Of a stretch of DNA of 64,000 nucleotides, positions 18,474 to 42,897 are shown piece by piece. The notes under the pieces were generated by a model that was not told where the DNA came from, made no database searches, and saw only the letters and a program-made list of their open reading frames with translations. The position numbers were made by a program, and so were the translations under genes. Within the stretch, counting starts at the first letter, position 1, and the number at the start of each line of letters is the position of its first letter. Source of the DNA: Treponema sp. (GTDB taxonomy: Bacteria > Spirochaetota > Spirochaetia > Treponematales > Treponemataceae); the NCBI GenBank assembly GCA_016281495.1, contig JAEEIU010000003.1, positions 1 through 64,000 on the forward strand, read 5' to 3'.

Positions 18474-18540
18474 ACCCATTGACATTGTAGGTAATTTCGG
18501 ATATATTCTGAATAATTATTTACCTACTTACTAGGTAGGA
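18474..18540 (+). promoter_or_regulatory. nifB-like operon promoter with two 19-bp operators
   Basis: Site 1 is ACCCATTGACATTGTAGGT (18474-18492); site 2 is ACCTACTTACTAGGTAGGA (18522-18540). The -35 box TTGACA (18479-18484) lies inside site 1, followed by a 17-bp spacer and -10 TATATT (18502-18507). Site 2 covers the start-site region. The same architecture recurs at 19845 and 41201, so one regulator probably represses all of them. Confidence 0.85.
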
Positions 18541-18577
18541 TTTATTTACACCTTAAAAACAGGACCAAGAGGGAACG

Positions 18578-19456
18578 ATGTCAAAGAGTTTTTCTGAATT
18601 AAAGGAAAATCACCCATGTTTCGCAAGCGGAAAGGCAACATCTGGACGCATACATTTGCCTGTGTGCCCCGGTTGCAACATTGCATGCCGTTTTTGCGAG
18701 CGCAGCTTGAATGACGATGAAAACAGGCCTGGTGTGACTTCGCGTGTGTTAAAGCCGGAAGAAACGATTCCCCTAATAAAAAAGGCCCTGGAAATCAGTC
18801 CGGAAATCAAAGTGGCGGGAATTGCGGGTCCGGGTGACACCCTTGCAAGTGACAATGCCCTAAAGACATTCAATCTGATAGACCGTGAATTCCCCGAACT
18901 CATCAAGTGCATGAGCACAAACGGTCTCCTCCTGGCCGAACGTGCAGACGAAATCATCAGGGTTGGAATCGACAGCCTTACGGTTACGGTAAACGCCGTG
19001 GATCCGGAAATAGAAGCCCAGCTCAACGACTACATCATATGGCACGGAAAAAAGATAGAGGGAGTGGAAGGAGCTAGAATCCTCATAGAAAACCAGCTTG
19101 AAGGAATCAGGAAAATCTCCGCCGCAGGAATCACAATCAAGGTGAACACAGTCCTTGTTCCACGCATCAACGGAGAACACATCGCGGAAATAGCAAAAAC
19201 CGTAGCCAAAGCGGGTGCAAAACGCTACAACATCATTCCGCTCATTCCCACGGCAAAACTCAAGGACGAACCGGCCCCCACATGTCTGGAAATCCACGCA
19301 GCAAGGGCCTCAGCAATGCCGTACATTGAACTTTTCCTGCACTGCAACCACTGCCGCGCCGATGCCGTTGGAGTTCCGGGACGCACAGAATTCTCAAAGG
19401 CACTTTACGCAAACTTCGGCACGGGAGAAGTAAAGGAGAATTTCTCACATGGCTGA
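18578..19456 (+). CDS. NifB-like radical SAM protein, core domain only
   Basis: 292 residues. HPCFASGKATSGRIHLPVCP leads into the radical-SAM cysteines CNIACRFC (C33, C37, C40). RPGVTSRVL follows, as in NifB, and the C-terminus has HCNHCRADAVG (from about residue 255), the NifB motif with cluster-binding cysteines. NifB fuses two 4Fe-4S clusters and inserts carbide to build the 8Fe core of nitrogenase cofactors. Here the usual C-terminal NifX-like domain is absent and encoded by the next gene, which overlaps by 8 bases. The presence of NifB argues that the NifDK-like enzyme at 38381-41173 carries a complex NifB-derived cofactor. The promoter has the shared operator pair. NifB-like is certain; what the cofactor finally serves is inference. 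Confidence 0.9.
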   Translation: MSKSFSELKENHPCFASGKATSGRIHLPVCPGCNIACRFCERSLNDDENRPGVTSRVLKPEETIPLIKKALEISPEIKVAGIAGPGDTLASDNALKTFNLIDREFPELIKCMSTNGLLLAERADEIIRVGIDSLTVTVNAVDPEIEAQLNDYIIWHGKKIEGVEGARILIENQLEGIRKISAAGITIKVNTVLVPRINGEHIAEIAKTVAKAGAKRYNIIPLIPTAKLKDEPAPTCLEIHAARASAMPYIELFLHCNHCRADAVGVPGRTEFSKALYANFGTGEVKENFSHG

Positions 19457-19817
19457 TACCAAATCCAAAACATACAGAATCGCAGTTGCCTCAACAGACG
19501 GAGAAAACGTCAACCAGCACTATGGCAGGGCGACAAAGTTTTACATATATTCAATGGACGACGAGGAAGGCTACGACCTTGTGGAAGAACGCAATGTGGA
19601 GCCAGTCTGCATGGAAGGTTCCCACGTGGTCTCAAAGATGGAACAAAGCGTACTCAGGTTCACGGACTGCCGCTACATCGTGGTTTCACGCCTTGGTAGT
19701 TCCGCAGGTGCCGCCCTCAGTGCAAGGGGAATCACGGCAATGGAACTTCCCGGTACGATTGACGAGGCCATCCTCAGCGTATGGAAGTACAACCGCGTGC
19801 AGGGACTTTTCAGCTGA
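19449..19817 (+). CDS. NifX/NafY-type cofactor-binding protein (detached NifB C-terminal domain)
   Basis: 122 residues of the dinitrogenase Fe-Mo cofactor biosynthesis fold (PF02579): RIAVASTDGENVNQHYGRATKFYIY at the start, with the His that ligands cofactor in this family, then CRYIVVSRLGSSAGAALSARGI. It overlaps the NifB-like gene by 8 bases, so translation is coupled. In most NifB proteins this domain is fused at the C-terminus; here it is split off. Its likely job is to hold or hand over the NifB product. A second, distinct copy with a cysteine loop is encoded at 21003. Confidence 0.88.
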   Translation: MADTKSKTYRIAVASTDGENVNQHYGRATKFYIYSMDDEEGYDLVEERNVEPVCMEGSHVVSKMEQSVLRFTDCRYIVVSRLGSSAGAALSARGITAMELPGTIDEAILSVWKYNRVQGLFS

Positions 19818-19844
19818 CATAGATTTTGTAAATATTTTTATAAA

Positions 19845-19903
19845 ACCTATTGACATAGTAGGTTATTATCATTATAGTGATATTACCTACCGAACTAATA
19901 GGT
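19845..19903 (+). promoter_or_regulatory. nifH-like promoter with two 19-bp operators
   Basis: Site 1 ACCTATTGACATAGTAGGT (19845-19863) contains the -35 TTGACA (19850-19855). A 17-bp spacer follows, then -10 TATAGT (19873-19878). Site 2 ACCTACCGAACTAATAGGT (19885-19903) covers the expected transcription start. Centres are 40 bp apart, close to four helical turns, so two repressor dimers could sit on one face of the DNA. Confidence 0.88.
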
Positions 19904-19940
19904 ATTTAATCAGGCCGACAGGGTCATAAAGGAGCACATA

Positions 19941-41173: not shown

Positions 41174-41200
41174 AATTGCTCCCTAATAATTTAATATAAA

Positions 41201-41260
41201 ACCTATTGACTTAGTAGGCATATATTCTTATACTATAAATAACCTAGCAAGTCAATAGGT
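41201..41260. promoter_or_regulatory. Divergent nifKD / malY-rrf2 promoter with two operators and overlapping -10 boxes
   Basis: Operators: ACCTATTGACTTAGTAGGC (41201-41219) and ACCTAGCAAGTCAATAGGT (41242-41260). Plus strand (malY): -35 TTGACT 41206-41211, 17-bp spacer, -10 TATACT 41229-41234. Minus strand (nifK): -35 TTGACT 41250-41255, 17-bp spacer, -10 TATAAG 41227-41232. Each operator holds one promoter's -35 and blocks the other's start. The two -10 boxes share four bases, so the promoters cannot be occupied together. Confidence 0.88.
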
Positions 41261-41291
41261 ATTTATAAATTTTTTTTTTCAAGGAGTTCTT

Positions 41292-42470
41292 ATGACATAC
41301 AATTTTGACACTGTCATTGACCGGCATGGAACCAACGCCATAAAAACCGACCTTGCCGTAATACGCGGGAAACCTGCCGACGTACTTTCGCTTTGGGTTG
41401 CAGACATGGACTTTCCCACTTCTCCTGCAATCCTGGAAGCCATTCACAAAAAAACCGATCATGGTGTTTTTGGATATTCATGCATAGATGACTCATTTTT
41501 CAATTCCCTGAAAAACTGGATGCAAACCGAGCATGATTTTTCTCCAGAGCGCAATGAACTTGTTACTACCCCGGGGGTTGTTTTTGGAATATCATGTGCA
41601 ATCAGGGCTTTTACAAAAGAAAACGAATCGGTGTTGATTCAGACTCCGGTTTATTATCCATTTAAGAACATGATTGAACTGAACAACCGTCATCTGGTAA
41701 CTTCTTCACTATACGAAAAGGACGGAAAGTATTACATCGATTTTGAAGATTTTGAAAGGAAAATCGCGGACAACAACGTAAAGCTTTTTATCCTATGCAG
41801 CCCGCATAATCCTGTTGGACGTGTATGGACAAAAGATGAACTTTTACAGATTCTTGAAATATGTCTCCGTCATAAAGTGATAGTCTTTTCCGATGAAATA
41901 CACAATGACTTTGTTTACGAACCGAACAAACATACAGTTTTTTCAACCCTATCCAAGGAAGCCGCAGAGAATTCAATTGTCTCCATGTCCGTAAGCAAAA
42001 CCTTTAATCTTGCGGGACTACAGTTCTCCACGAATTTCATAAAGAATCCTGTGCTAAGGAAACTTTTCAAGATAGAAAAAGACAAGACCGGTTACGACGA
42101 ACCAAGCCTTATCGGTATGACAGCCGCACATGCCGCCTATGACAATGGCAAACCATGGCTTGATGACCTGCAAGCATACCTTAAGGACAATATTGAATTC
42201 CTACGCTCATTCCTAAAACAAAAGCTCCCCAAGGTTAGGTTGATTGAACCTGAGGGCACCTTCCTTCTATGGCTTGATTTTTCCGGCATGGGATTTTCTG
42301 ATTCTGAAATCGACGACATCATCGTAAACAGGGCAAAAGTGTGGCTCGACCGTGGAACAATGTTCGGACCTGAAGGAGAATATTACCAGAGAATAAATGT
42401 TGCAACTCCTCGCTCAATTTTGGAGGAAGCACTTAATAGAATTACAAAAGCGTTTCAGGAGGTAAAATAA
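41292..42470 (+). CDS. malY: MalY/PatB-type PLP C-S lyase (cystathionine beta-lyase)
   Basis: 392 residues of the fold-I aminotransferase group. It begins FDTVIDRHGTNAIKTD, typical of PatB/MalY (RxGTxSxKWD-like), then VADMDF, HNPVGRVW, SDEIHNDFVY and the PLP lysine in SVSKTFNLAGLQ. It cleaves C-S bonds of cystathionine, cysteine or cysteine S-conjugates to a thiol, pyruvate and ammonia. AAGGAG lies seven bases before the ATG. The next gene (Rrf2) starts one base after its stop, so they are co-expressed under the divergent operator pair. Confidence 0.9.
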   Translation: MTYNFDTVIDRHGTNAIKTDLAVIRGKPADVLSLWVADMDFPTSPAILEAIHKKTDHGVFGYSCIDDSFFNSLKNWMQTEHDFSPERNELVTTPGVVFGISCAIRAFTKENESVLIQTPVYYPFKNMIELNNRHLVTSSLYEKDGKYYIDFEDFERKIADNNVKLFILCSPHNPVGRVWTKDELLQILEICLRHKVIVFSDEIHNDFVYEPNKHTVFSTLSKEAAENSIVSMSVSKTFNLAGLQFSTNFIKNPVLRKLFKIEKDKTGYDEPSLIGMTAAHAAYDNGKPWLDDLQAYLKDNIEFLRSFLKQKLPKVRLIEPEGTFLLWLDFSGMGFSDSEIDDIIVNRAKVWLDRGTMFGPEGEYYQRINVATPRSILEEALNRITKAFQEVK

Positions 42471-42471
42471 A

Positions 42472-42897
42472 ATGTACAAGATTTCAACACGCGGACAATA
42501 TGCACTTTTGATCATGGAAGACCTTGCATTGGGAGAACCCGACAAGTACATTCCATTAAAAATTCTTTCCCACCGCAGAAATCTTTCGGTAAAGTATTTA
42601 GAGCAGATTTTGATTCACCTTAGCAAAGCCCACCTTGTAAACGGATCAAGGGGAATAAACGGAGGCTACAAGCTTACAAGGCAACCACAAGATTATACAA
42701 TCGGTGAAATACTTCGCGTCATGGAGGGAAAACTCTGCCCCCTGGGAGATTTTGAGAACAACACCGTAATCTCCGAAGGCAGCCGTGAATTCTGGAAAAA
42801 CTTTGAGTCCACGATAAATGATTACGTAGATTCCATCCATTTGAATGAACTTGCCCAAAAAAACAAAGAGTTCATAGGATATGAATATTCAATTTAA
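42472..42897 (+). CDS. Rrf2-family regulator without Fe-S cysteines (CymR-like candidate)
   Basis: 141 residues. N-terminal winged helix KISTRGQYALLIMEDLA, recognition helix LSVKYLEQILIHLSKAHLV, wing GSRGINGGYKLTR: the full Rrf2 pattern. The C-terminal part has a single Cys (GKLCPLGDF) where IscR/NsrR have three, so an Fe-S cluster is unlikely. This resembles CymR, the cysteine-metabolism repressor that works with CysK. Because it is encoded inside the regulon and Rrf2 proteins bind 19-27-bp dyads, it is the best candidate to bind ACCTA-N9-TAGGT, including its own promoter. That link is inference. Confidence 0.88.
   Translation: MYKISTRGQYALLIMEDLALGEPDKYIPLKILSHRRNLSVKYLEQILIHLSKAHLVNGSRGINGGYKLTRQPQDYTIGEILRVMEGKLCPLGDFENNTVISEGSREFWKNFESTINDYVDSIHLNELAQKNKEFIGYEYSI

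Follow-up and report, generated by a model that had tools for sequence, protein, structure and literature searches.

Gene content of the locus

The window, by which we mean the whole 64-kb stretch of Treponema sp. DNA analysed here, belongs to a draft genome of 3.21 Mb in 61 contigs. It carries a nitrogenase-like system set among genes of sulfur metabolism. Two adjacent reverse-strand genes encode the D subunit (38381..39853), a homologue of NifD and MarD and the predicted holder of an [Fe8S9C] cluster, and the K subunit (39869..41173), a homologue of NifK and MarK. A divergent CysK-family enzyme is encoded downstream of D on the same strand (37284..38261); its 269 bits lie below the cysK cut-off of 350.95. 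Read divergently from K, on the forward strand, are a PatB/MalY-type C-S (cystathionine) beta-lyase (41292..42470) and a CymR-like Rrf2 regulator (42472..42897). A second forward-strand group encodes a NifB-like radical SAM protein with the predicted role of MarB (18578..19456), a first NifX/NifB C-domain-like protein (19449..19817, PF02579), a canonical NifH-type Fe protein (19941..20792), a second NifX-like protein (21003..21422, PF02579) and a MetB/MetI-type enzyme of the cystathionine gamma-synthase family (21431..22606). Between the two groups, on the reverse strand, lie the genes of an SsuA-type substrate-binding protein of the NMT1 family (26371..27456), an SsuB/SaoA-type ABC ATPase (30154..30969) and an SsuC/SaoP-type permease (31076..32059). 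All of these open reading frames (ORFs) are open at the positions given, and profile searches, with family annotation covering the genes at 14161-50257, agree with the gene names of the initial annotation.

The NifB-like protein consists of the radical-SAM part only (TIGR01290, 247.8 bits, below the cut-off of 343.65), the NifX-like domain being encoded apart from it at 19449-19817. It carries what we take to be the HPC, CxxxCxxC, AGPG, TxTxN and CxxCRxDAxG motifs; the E[ST]R pattern was not matched in this protein, which reads E-N-R-P at that place. NifH reaches 459.9 bits against the nifH profile (cut-off 394.35) and is the sole full-length NifH found genome-wide, the three other PF00142 matches being weak (24-32 bits). 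Its match to canonical NifH (E 3e-139) is closer than that to MarH (2e-85), and it does not classify as a MarH-type reductase. Only two proteins of the 3.2-Mb genome, D and K themselves, match PF00148. NifE and NifN are therefore absent, as the initial annotation had stated, as far as a draft that is 98.8% complete shows. Its companion claim, that ammonia-related genes are missing, holds among the annotated genes. For the NifV profile, whose cut-off is 462.9, the best match reached 182 bits, and none of 14 controls passed the cut-off either.

D and K belong to a sister clade of MarD and MarK

Among PDB entries, D matched MarD of methylthio-alkane reductase (Mar) at E 2e-83, with the next family at 1e-28, and K matched MarK at E 1e-102, with the next at 9e-25. 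The AlphaFold model of D, with a mean predicted local distance difference test (pLDDT) score of 81, aligned with MarD 9fmg at Z 40.9 over 461 residues. The next structural matches were 9d9u, also MarD (Z 35.1), and NifEN, the best non-Mar structure (Z 30.5).

The initial annotation had proposed placing D and K in a phylogeny. In a careful D tree of 48 rows, the window D falls in a clade that we call T1, whose core received bootstrap and Shimodaira-Hasegawa-like approximate likelihood ratio test (SH-aLRT) supports of 95/99, or 100/99 with the D of relative G246. The clade of Rhodospirillum rubrum MarD was supported at 95/92, the grouping of T1 with Mar at 97/98, and a further class, T2, at 100/99. 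A quick K tree agrees (SH-aLRT 100 for T1 K, 90 for Mar-type K). T1 is a clade distinct from Mar and sister to it in both the D and the K trees. The D and K sets had been thinned at 80% and 75% identity, ORFs for D of at most 380 residues (one set) or below 400 residues (another set) were not used, and G212a_9391 and L102_1498 (D tree) and the G212a K (K tree) were left out as long branches.

Active-site columns were compared in 91 T1 D proteins, near-duplicates included, with MarD numbering and residue roles from PMC12552129. The columns C66, C91, C158, C270, R428, H429, W195, F199 and H375 of MarD are conserved in all 91. The first three are the P-cluster cysteines on D, likewise complete in 91/91, and those on K were present in all 28 rows checked, being common to T1, T2, Mar-type proteins and controls; the C66 column is misaligned for the NifD controls (Cys in 2/7). 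The Arg428-His429 loop (Loop I) occurs in 91/91 T1 proteins and in none of 7 NifD, 8 NifE or 17 T2 proteins; its residues in the window D are Arg413 and His414. The loop-less NifD controls have Val, Gln and His at the Val70, Gln191 and His195 columns in 7/7, and the latter two columns hold Trp and Phe in every T1 protein. The Val70 columns are without Val in T1, and Gln stands at the MarD Gln74 column in 60 of the 91. At the NifD His442 column, no T1, T2 or Mar row of the whole-set alignment has a residue.

T1 proteins are widespread. In 296 genomes of the phylum, 27 match D at E <=1e-20, 11 of them, including the window's own, through a T1 protein. Further T1 loci were taken as the best 80 of at least 559 contig stretches encoding a D relative, some of them the same genome sampled twice (L069 and G283), and the T1 D proteins of both sources are 50-97% identical to the window D. 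Within the best 80, the closest named relatives belong to Treponema and Spirochaetales bins, of which many are of rumen origin, and carriers include Treponema, Fibrobacter succinogenes, Ruminococcus flavefaciens, Butyrivibrio, Clostridium aminobutyricum, Clostridium acidisoli, Pelosinus propionicus, Megamonas and Bacteroidales; Endomicrobium and Paenibacillus are not named among them. T1 thus spans four phyla, Spirochaetota, Fibrobacterota, Bacillota and Bacteroidota. Since most carriers are metagenome bins, single placements, above all in Bacteroidota, could be binning errors.

In the other loci inspected, the NifH beside T1 is of the canonical type (76-98% identity). Two loci, from Lachnoclostridium UBA1308 and C. 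aminobutyricum (L096, L097), pair T1 with a 49%-identical, perhaps MarH-like protein, a switch that suggests reductase replacement.

A paired operator links the island to a sulfur regulon

Five exact CCTA-N9-TAGG sites occur in the window against 0.31 expected, and none of 100 shuffles reached five. All lie 29-95 bp upstream of nifB, nifH, K and PatB: one at 18523, two at 19846..19902 before nifH, and two at 41202..41259 between the divergent K-D-CysK and PatB-Rrf2 groups (no strand is assigned to any box). Allowing one mismatch gave seven sites against 0.99 expected (largest shuffle 6), including those upstream of SsuA (27484..27500) and SsuC (32090..32106). Another relaxed pattern added a box at 18475, also with one mismatch, which forms the pair 18475..18539 before nifB. 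Boxes are spaced about 40-48 bp apart at nifB, nifH and K/PatB, and the upstream box of each pair contains TTGACA or TTGACT, which presumably resembles a -35 hexamer. This arrangement looks like that of a repressor covering the hexamer and the start site. A single operator shared by all these genes had been claimed initially. The operator is real, being exact at nifB, nifH, K and PatB and nearly so at SsuA and SsuC, but the window scan found no site belonging to nifX2-MetB, CysK, SsuB or the FtsX/LolD pair described below. We presume that nifX2-MetB, CysK and SsuB are served as downstream genes of operons.

Outside the window, a stricter pattern gave 12 strand hits genome-wide, with none for the reversed control. 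One site precedes a cysK that passes the curated cut-off (450.7 bits), another lies within metN-metI-metQ, before metQ (MetI identified over its cut-off, MetN and MetQ by best match), and one is isolated on contig C14. The presence of the operator before cysK and metQ defines a sulfur regulon. In 22 relatives of the genus and family, the stricter pattern gave 192 strand hits and its reversed control 14, with three genomes having none; genomes with a D match (10 of the 22) account for 164 of the hits, and the 12 others for 28. Around T1 itself, 32 Spirochaetota loci hold 74 sites, 69 of them intergenic (reversed control 4, shuffle mean 3.9), and 4 Fibrobacterota loci hold 5 (control 0, shuffle mean 0.17).

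CymR is an Rrf2-family repressor that acts on genes for the uptake and synthesis of cysteine and methionine. The window Rrf2 protein scores 101 bits against the CymR family NF047409, below its cut-off of 195. We infer from its family and position that this CymR-like protein is the operator-binding repressor. The likeness to CymR is one of regulator family.

Conserved gene order and islands with several DK pairs

The same genes stand in the same order within about 18 kb in relative G272 (Rrf2-PatB, K-D-CysK-LysR, radical SAM, SsuC-SsuB-SsuA-FtsX-LolD, MetB-NifX-NifH-(one ORF)-NifB). The window run spans 24 kb and includes genes that the G272 run lacks: Fic; LarE with a hypothetical gene; and a second radical SAM gene with WYL, GyrI and hypotheticals. 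In a Ruminococcus locus (L106) the genes follow one another on one strand as LysR-MetB-PatB-CysK-NifB-NifX-NifH-CysK-D-K-NifX-SsuA-SsuC-SsuB-Rrf2, and in G218, which represents a different genus of the family, the order is PatB-(ORF)-NifB-NifH-NifX-D-K-CysK-SsuA-SsuC-SsuB. Neighbours were counted in 47 of the 80 T1 loci, those with a T1 ORF and flanks of 4 kb or more in both directions; the other 33 had less than 4 kb on one side or no T1 ORF kept. Within 8 kb of T1, raw counts were 37 for CysK, 28 for NifB, 28 for NifH, 27 for PatB, 16 for MetB and 10 for Rrf2. An import-type ABC ATPase from a mixed cluster, with MetN-like and Ssu-like members, was found at 20 loci. An amino-acid-type binding protein (SBP_bac_3) was near 9 of the 47, and six of these nine loci are without a T2 D. 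One neighbour cluster resembled a binding protein by eye and had no Pfam match at 1e-8.

Several islands hold more than one DK pair. Three D and three K genes accompany one NifH (E <=1e-40) in the treponeme genomes G231, G286 and G246, and G273 has three D genes plus a second NifH-like frame, 53% identical. Seven loci combine T1 with a Mar-type pair (G231, G286, G283, G191, L081, L084 and plasmid pTS2 of Treponema saccharophilum), some of which may be the same or sibling species; this co-occurrence suggests divided labour. An Ssu-like importer set precedes the Mar-type pairs in 5/6 loci and likewise on pTS2. In G191, a second NifH-like frame of 53% identity (C10:73697-74461) contains an in-frame TAG.

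The T2 class (n=17: G231 C1:2710180, L097:7195, L098:5602 and 14 others) keeps the P-cluster cysteines and Cys270 and lacks the Arg-His loop of Mar. Each of the 17 carries a His two columns ahead of the NifD His442 column, which may be an alignment offset. In 7/17, the genes directly upstream encode an importer made up of a binding protein of family 3 (amino-acid type), two permeases and an ATPase. T2 may correspond to the Nfa (IV-A) class, for which N2 fixation is reported, yet its genes lie within sulfur islands here.

T. saccharophilum JCM 32279, a cultured organism, carries T1 and Mar-type pairs on its 382-kb plasmid pTS2 (L197), in the order MetY, CysK, NifB, NifX, NifH, LysR, NifX, K, D, GNAT, ABC importer, Mar-type D/K. 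Its T1 D is 89% identical to the window D, and its Mar-type D is 76% identical to that of G231. The pairs are annotated merely as 'nitrogenase component 1'. Two operator sites occur on pTS2 against 0.06 expected. The case can thus be tested in a cultured organism.

Proposed function and alternatives

The initial annotation had suggested two options, an enzyme like Mar or a new nitrogenase-like one, that would supply MetB/MetI and CysK with thiols or sulfide. Judged by its sequence, its fold, the residues of its active site, its operator and the absence of NifEN, the enzyme stands next to Mar and belongs to a sulfur regulon, and the second option fits better, T1 being the sister clade of Mar and coexisting with a Mar-type pair in seven loci. 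T1 is probably a nitrogenase-family C-S bond reductase, regulated by sulfur shortage and feeding CysK, MetB and PatB. NifB would make the [Fe8S9C] cluster, to be loaded into D with neither NifEN nor homocitrate. With ATP, NifH would pass electrons via the P-cluster, and D would reductively cleave the C-S bond of an imported organosulfur compound. The reduced sulfur would enter CysK, then MetB and PatB to give homocysteine, which MetH would convert to methionine. Under sulfur or cysteine shortage, the CymR-like Rrf2 repressor would leave the paired CCTA-N9-TAGG boxes and the genes would be turned on. We infer the cluster content, the substrate, the product, the operator-binding protein and the direction of regulation in this scheme from genes and residues.

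Neither sulfite reductase (NIR_SIR) nor PAPS (3′-phosphoadenosine-5′-phosphosulfate) reductase was found in the genome, although they were found in 11/14 and 14/14 controls, respectively. Sulfite and sulfate should therefore be unusable, and a product of use to the cell would have to be sulfide or a thiol. A route from sulfide through cysteine and cystathionine to homocysteine is favoured by the canonical cysK that the same operator precedes, and by the location of CysK and PatB near T1 across several phyla. We give sulfide about an even chance of being the product; a thiol such as methanethiol is possible, if doubtful. A wider proposal, which we put forward tentatively, is that T1, in bacteria of the rumen and gut from four phyla, may be a new kind of nitrogenase-family enzyme that desulfurises some organosulfur compound to sulfide, and that interchangeable DK modules (T1, Mar-type, T2), many of them flanked by importers, may share one NifH, one NifB and one sulfur-starvation repressor.

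Several observations weigh against the proposed desulfurising role of T1. The MarD His194 column is Ile in 87 and Val in 4 of the 91 T1 D proteins, and Cys73 is never Cys; in the window D, His194 is replaced by Ile, Cys73 by Asn and Gln74 by Ala. The pocket hence differs from that of MarD, and the substrate is not readable from the residues. His194 is found in only 1/7 Mar-type D proteins of the set, that of R. rubrum itself. With the ligands conserved and the pocket altered, we favour an enzyme that would hold a P-cluster and an [Fe8S9C] cluster around a different pocket. The operator signal is weak in Bacillota T1 loci (17 sites, 10 intergenic; reversed control 6, shuffles 4.8) and lacking in Bacteroidota T1 loci (1 site; control 2, shuffle mean 0.97). 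The best serine-acetyltransferase match in the genome is below the cysE cut-off. The genome also encodes two further PF01053 enzymes of MetY size, which could use methanethiol directly and make a thiol product possible. SsuB/SsuC of at least 40% identity is a neighbour in only 8/47 T1 loci and this, like the other neighbour counts, is a raw number without a random-locus control. In addition, SsuABC of the window type adjoins Mar-type pairs (G231, G286, G283), T2 (G197) and the T1 run (G272, G273, G218, L106), so that its assignment to T1 alone is unsafe. The earlier idea of an importer belonging to this enzyme is thus right only in part: operator-like sites mark the SsuABC genes, but the importer is also found beside Mar-type or T2 pairs in related loci.

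The nearest alternative is a plain methylthio-alkane reductase that releases methanethiol from methyl thioethers, to be condensed to methionine by MetB/MetI or MetY. MarD and MarK being the best relatives, with ligands and Arg-His loop conserved, would agree with this, as would MetB/MetI in the cluster, the MetY-size enzymes elsewhere in the genome and the MetY-type gene that opens the T. saccharophilum island. It is nevertheless unlikely, because T1 forms a separate clade in the D and K trees, seven loci hold T1 and a Mar-type pair side by side, and the presence of CysK and PatB speaks for sulfide and cysteine more than for methanethiol.

A further alternative is N2 fixation by a divergent nitrogenase of group IV, as claimed for Endomicrobium proavitum NfaHDK. 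The canonical NifH would agree with it, and a group IV system devoid of NifEN is reported to be N2-fixing (PMC9147875). We regard this as very improbable for T1: besides the absence of NifE/N from the genome, Val70, Gln191 and His195 of NifD have no counterpart in the 91 T1 proteins save the Gln at the MarD Gln74 column (60 proteins), the His442 column is empty, and the genes stand under a sulfur operator shared with cysK and metQ. Equally hard to sustain is an isethionate-reductase-like activity freeing sulfite from sulfonates imported by SsuABC, for which the model would be isrBHDK-ssuCAB of Rhodobacter capsulatus, where such an importer is near a nitrogenase-like enzyme (PMC11423573, available part). 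According to the same text, IsrD lacks two of the D cysteines and the cofactor Cys/His, which T1 retains. IsrB is BciD-like and the window maturase NifB-like, and the sulfite would meet no detectable sulfite reductase. The features of Isr, a single P-cluster Cys on IsrD, no cofactor Cys/His and a BciD-like IsrB, are thus not those of T1.

Relation to known systems

The reading of T1 as a C-S bond reductase of its own clade can be set beside systems described in PMC12552129, PMC11423573, PMC9147875, PMC13067680, PMC10418091, PMC11257099, PMC8399215, PMC13188914 and PMC8209448, each cited from the portion available. Mar of R. rubrum (MarBHDK; PMC12552129; PDB 9fmg, 9d9u) shares with T1 the D/K homology, the six P-cluster Cys, Cys270, Arg428-His429, Trp195 and His375, and shares with the window system a NifB-type maturase, independence from NifEN and a role in sulfur metabolism. 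Identity to Mar is 33% for D and 41% for K, and the window differs in having a canonical NifH instead of MarH and in its CysK, PatB, MetB and Rrf2 neighbours; Mar-like genes have been described near methyltransferase clusters. Isr with SsuCAB (PMC11423573) likewise joins a nitrogenase-like enzyme to an SsuABC-type importer for organic sulfur but, unlike T1, lacks the large-cluster ligands and releases sulfite. Heliophilum fasciatum NflDK1-5 resembles the T1 islands by description, with several group IV DK pairs, one of them Mar, and one nifH-like gene; the part of PMC9147875 available mentions no sulfur operator. By description too, the termite-gut spirochete Pillotina corrugata (PMC13067680) has scattered group IV nifB/nifH, and nifDK in an operon with cysteine synthase, as here; the passages on it do not deal with clade, cofactor residues or regulon.

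Mar is the only nitrogenase-like enzyme described with large P- and [Fe8S9C]-clusters, according to the available part of PMC12552129. T1 would be a second such line, in a family where few enzymes have a known substrate. Many carriers come from rumen or gut, where sulfur release bears on methanethiol and sulfide output and perhaps on that of methane and ethylene. As the NifH found here is of the canonical type, sulfur scavengers may be mistaken for nitrogen fixers when such samples are surveyed by nifH. No paper on the T1 clade was recognised in the open-access PMC literature, which is weak evidence of absence. As far as the literature searched shows, the T1 clade with its residue signature, the operator and regulon, the spread, and three DK modules per NifH in a sulfur island are new.

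Accessory genes and further observations

A LysR-type regulator follows the CysK gene (36358..37287, reverse strand) and is also present in the island of several relatives. Near SsuABC, on the reverse strand, are an accessory LolD-like ABC ATPase (24099..24842) and FtsX/MacB-like permease (24754..25950), accompanied by a small membrane protein (25935-26207); a LolD/FtsX-type pair is found near SsuABC in five relatives. Naming the importer SaoA/SaoP/SaoX after the NCBIfam models of the selenocysteine-assisted organometallic (Sao) system (PMC13188914, available part) was rejected. All matches were below the curated cut-offs, and the name SsuABC-type was therefore kept.

Beyond PatB-Rrf2 follow a MATE gene, a MetH that lacks the activation domain and provides a linked methionine step (44407..46914, reverse strand; no operator site found upstream), and a BtuF/FecCD/ABC-type importer, the MetH and importer genes lying within 44407-50257. 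Methionine synthase appears split between this MetH and a separate protein (46927-47592) with a weak Met_synt_B12 match. In G212, a spirochete of the same order, an Isr-like H-D-K set with one P-cluster Cys on D lies at about 28.5-32.2 kb of C1, and a separate nifHDKENB-like cluster at about 1.294-1.303 Mb. Finally, the spaces between island genes at about 20800-20970, 26220-26320 and 30970-31075 contain short repeats of the type GTCATTCCGG / TGAACTTGATTCAGGATC.

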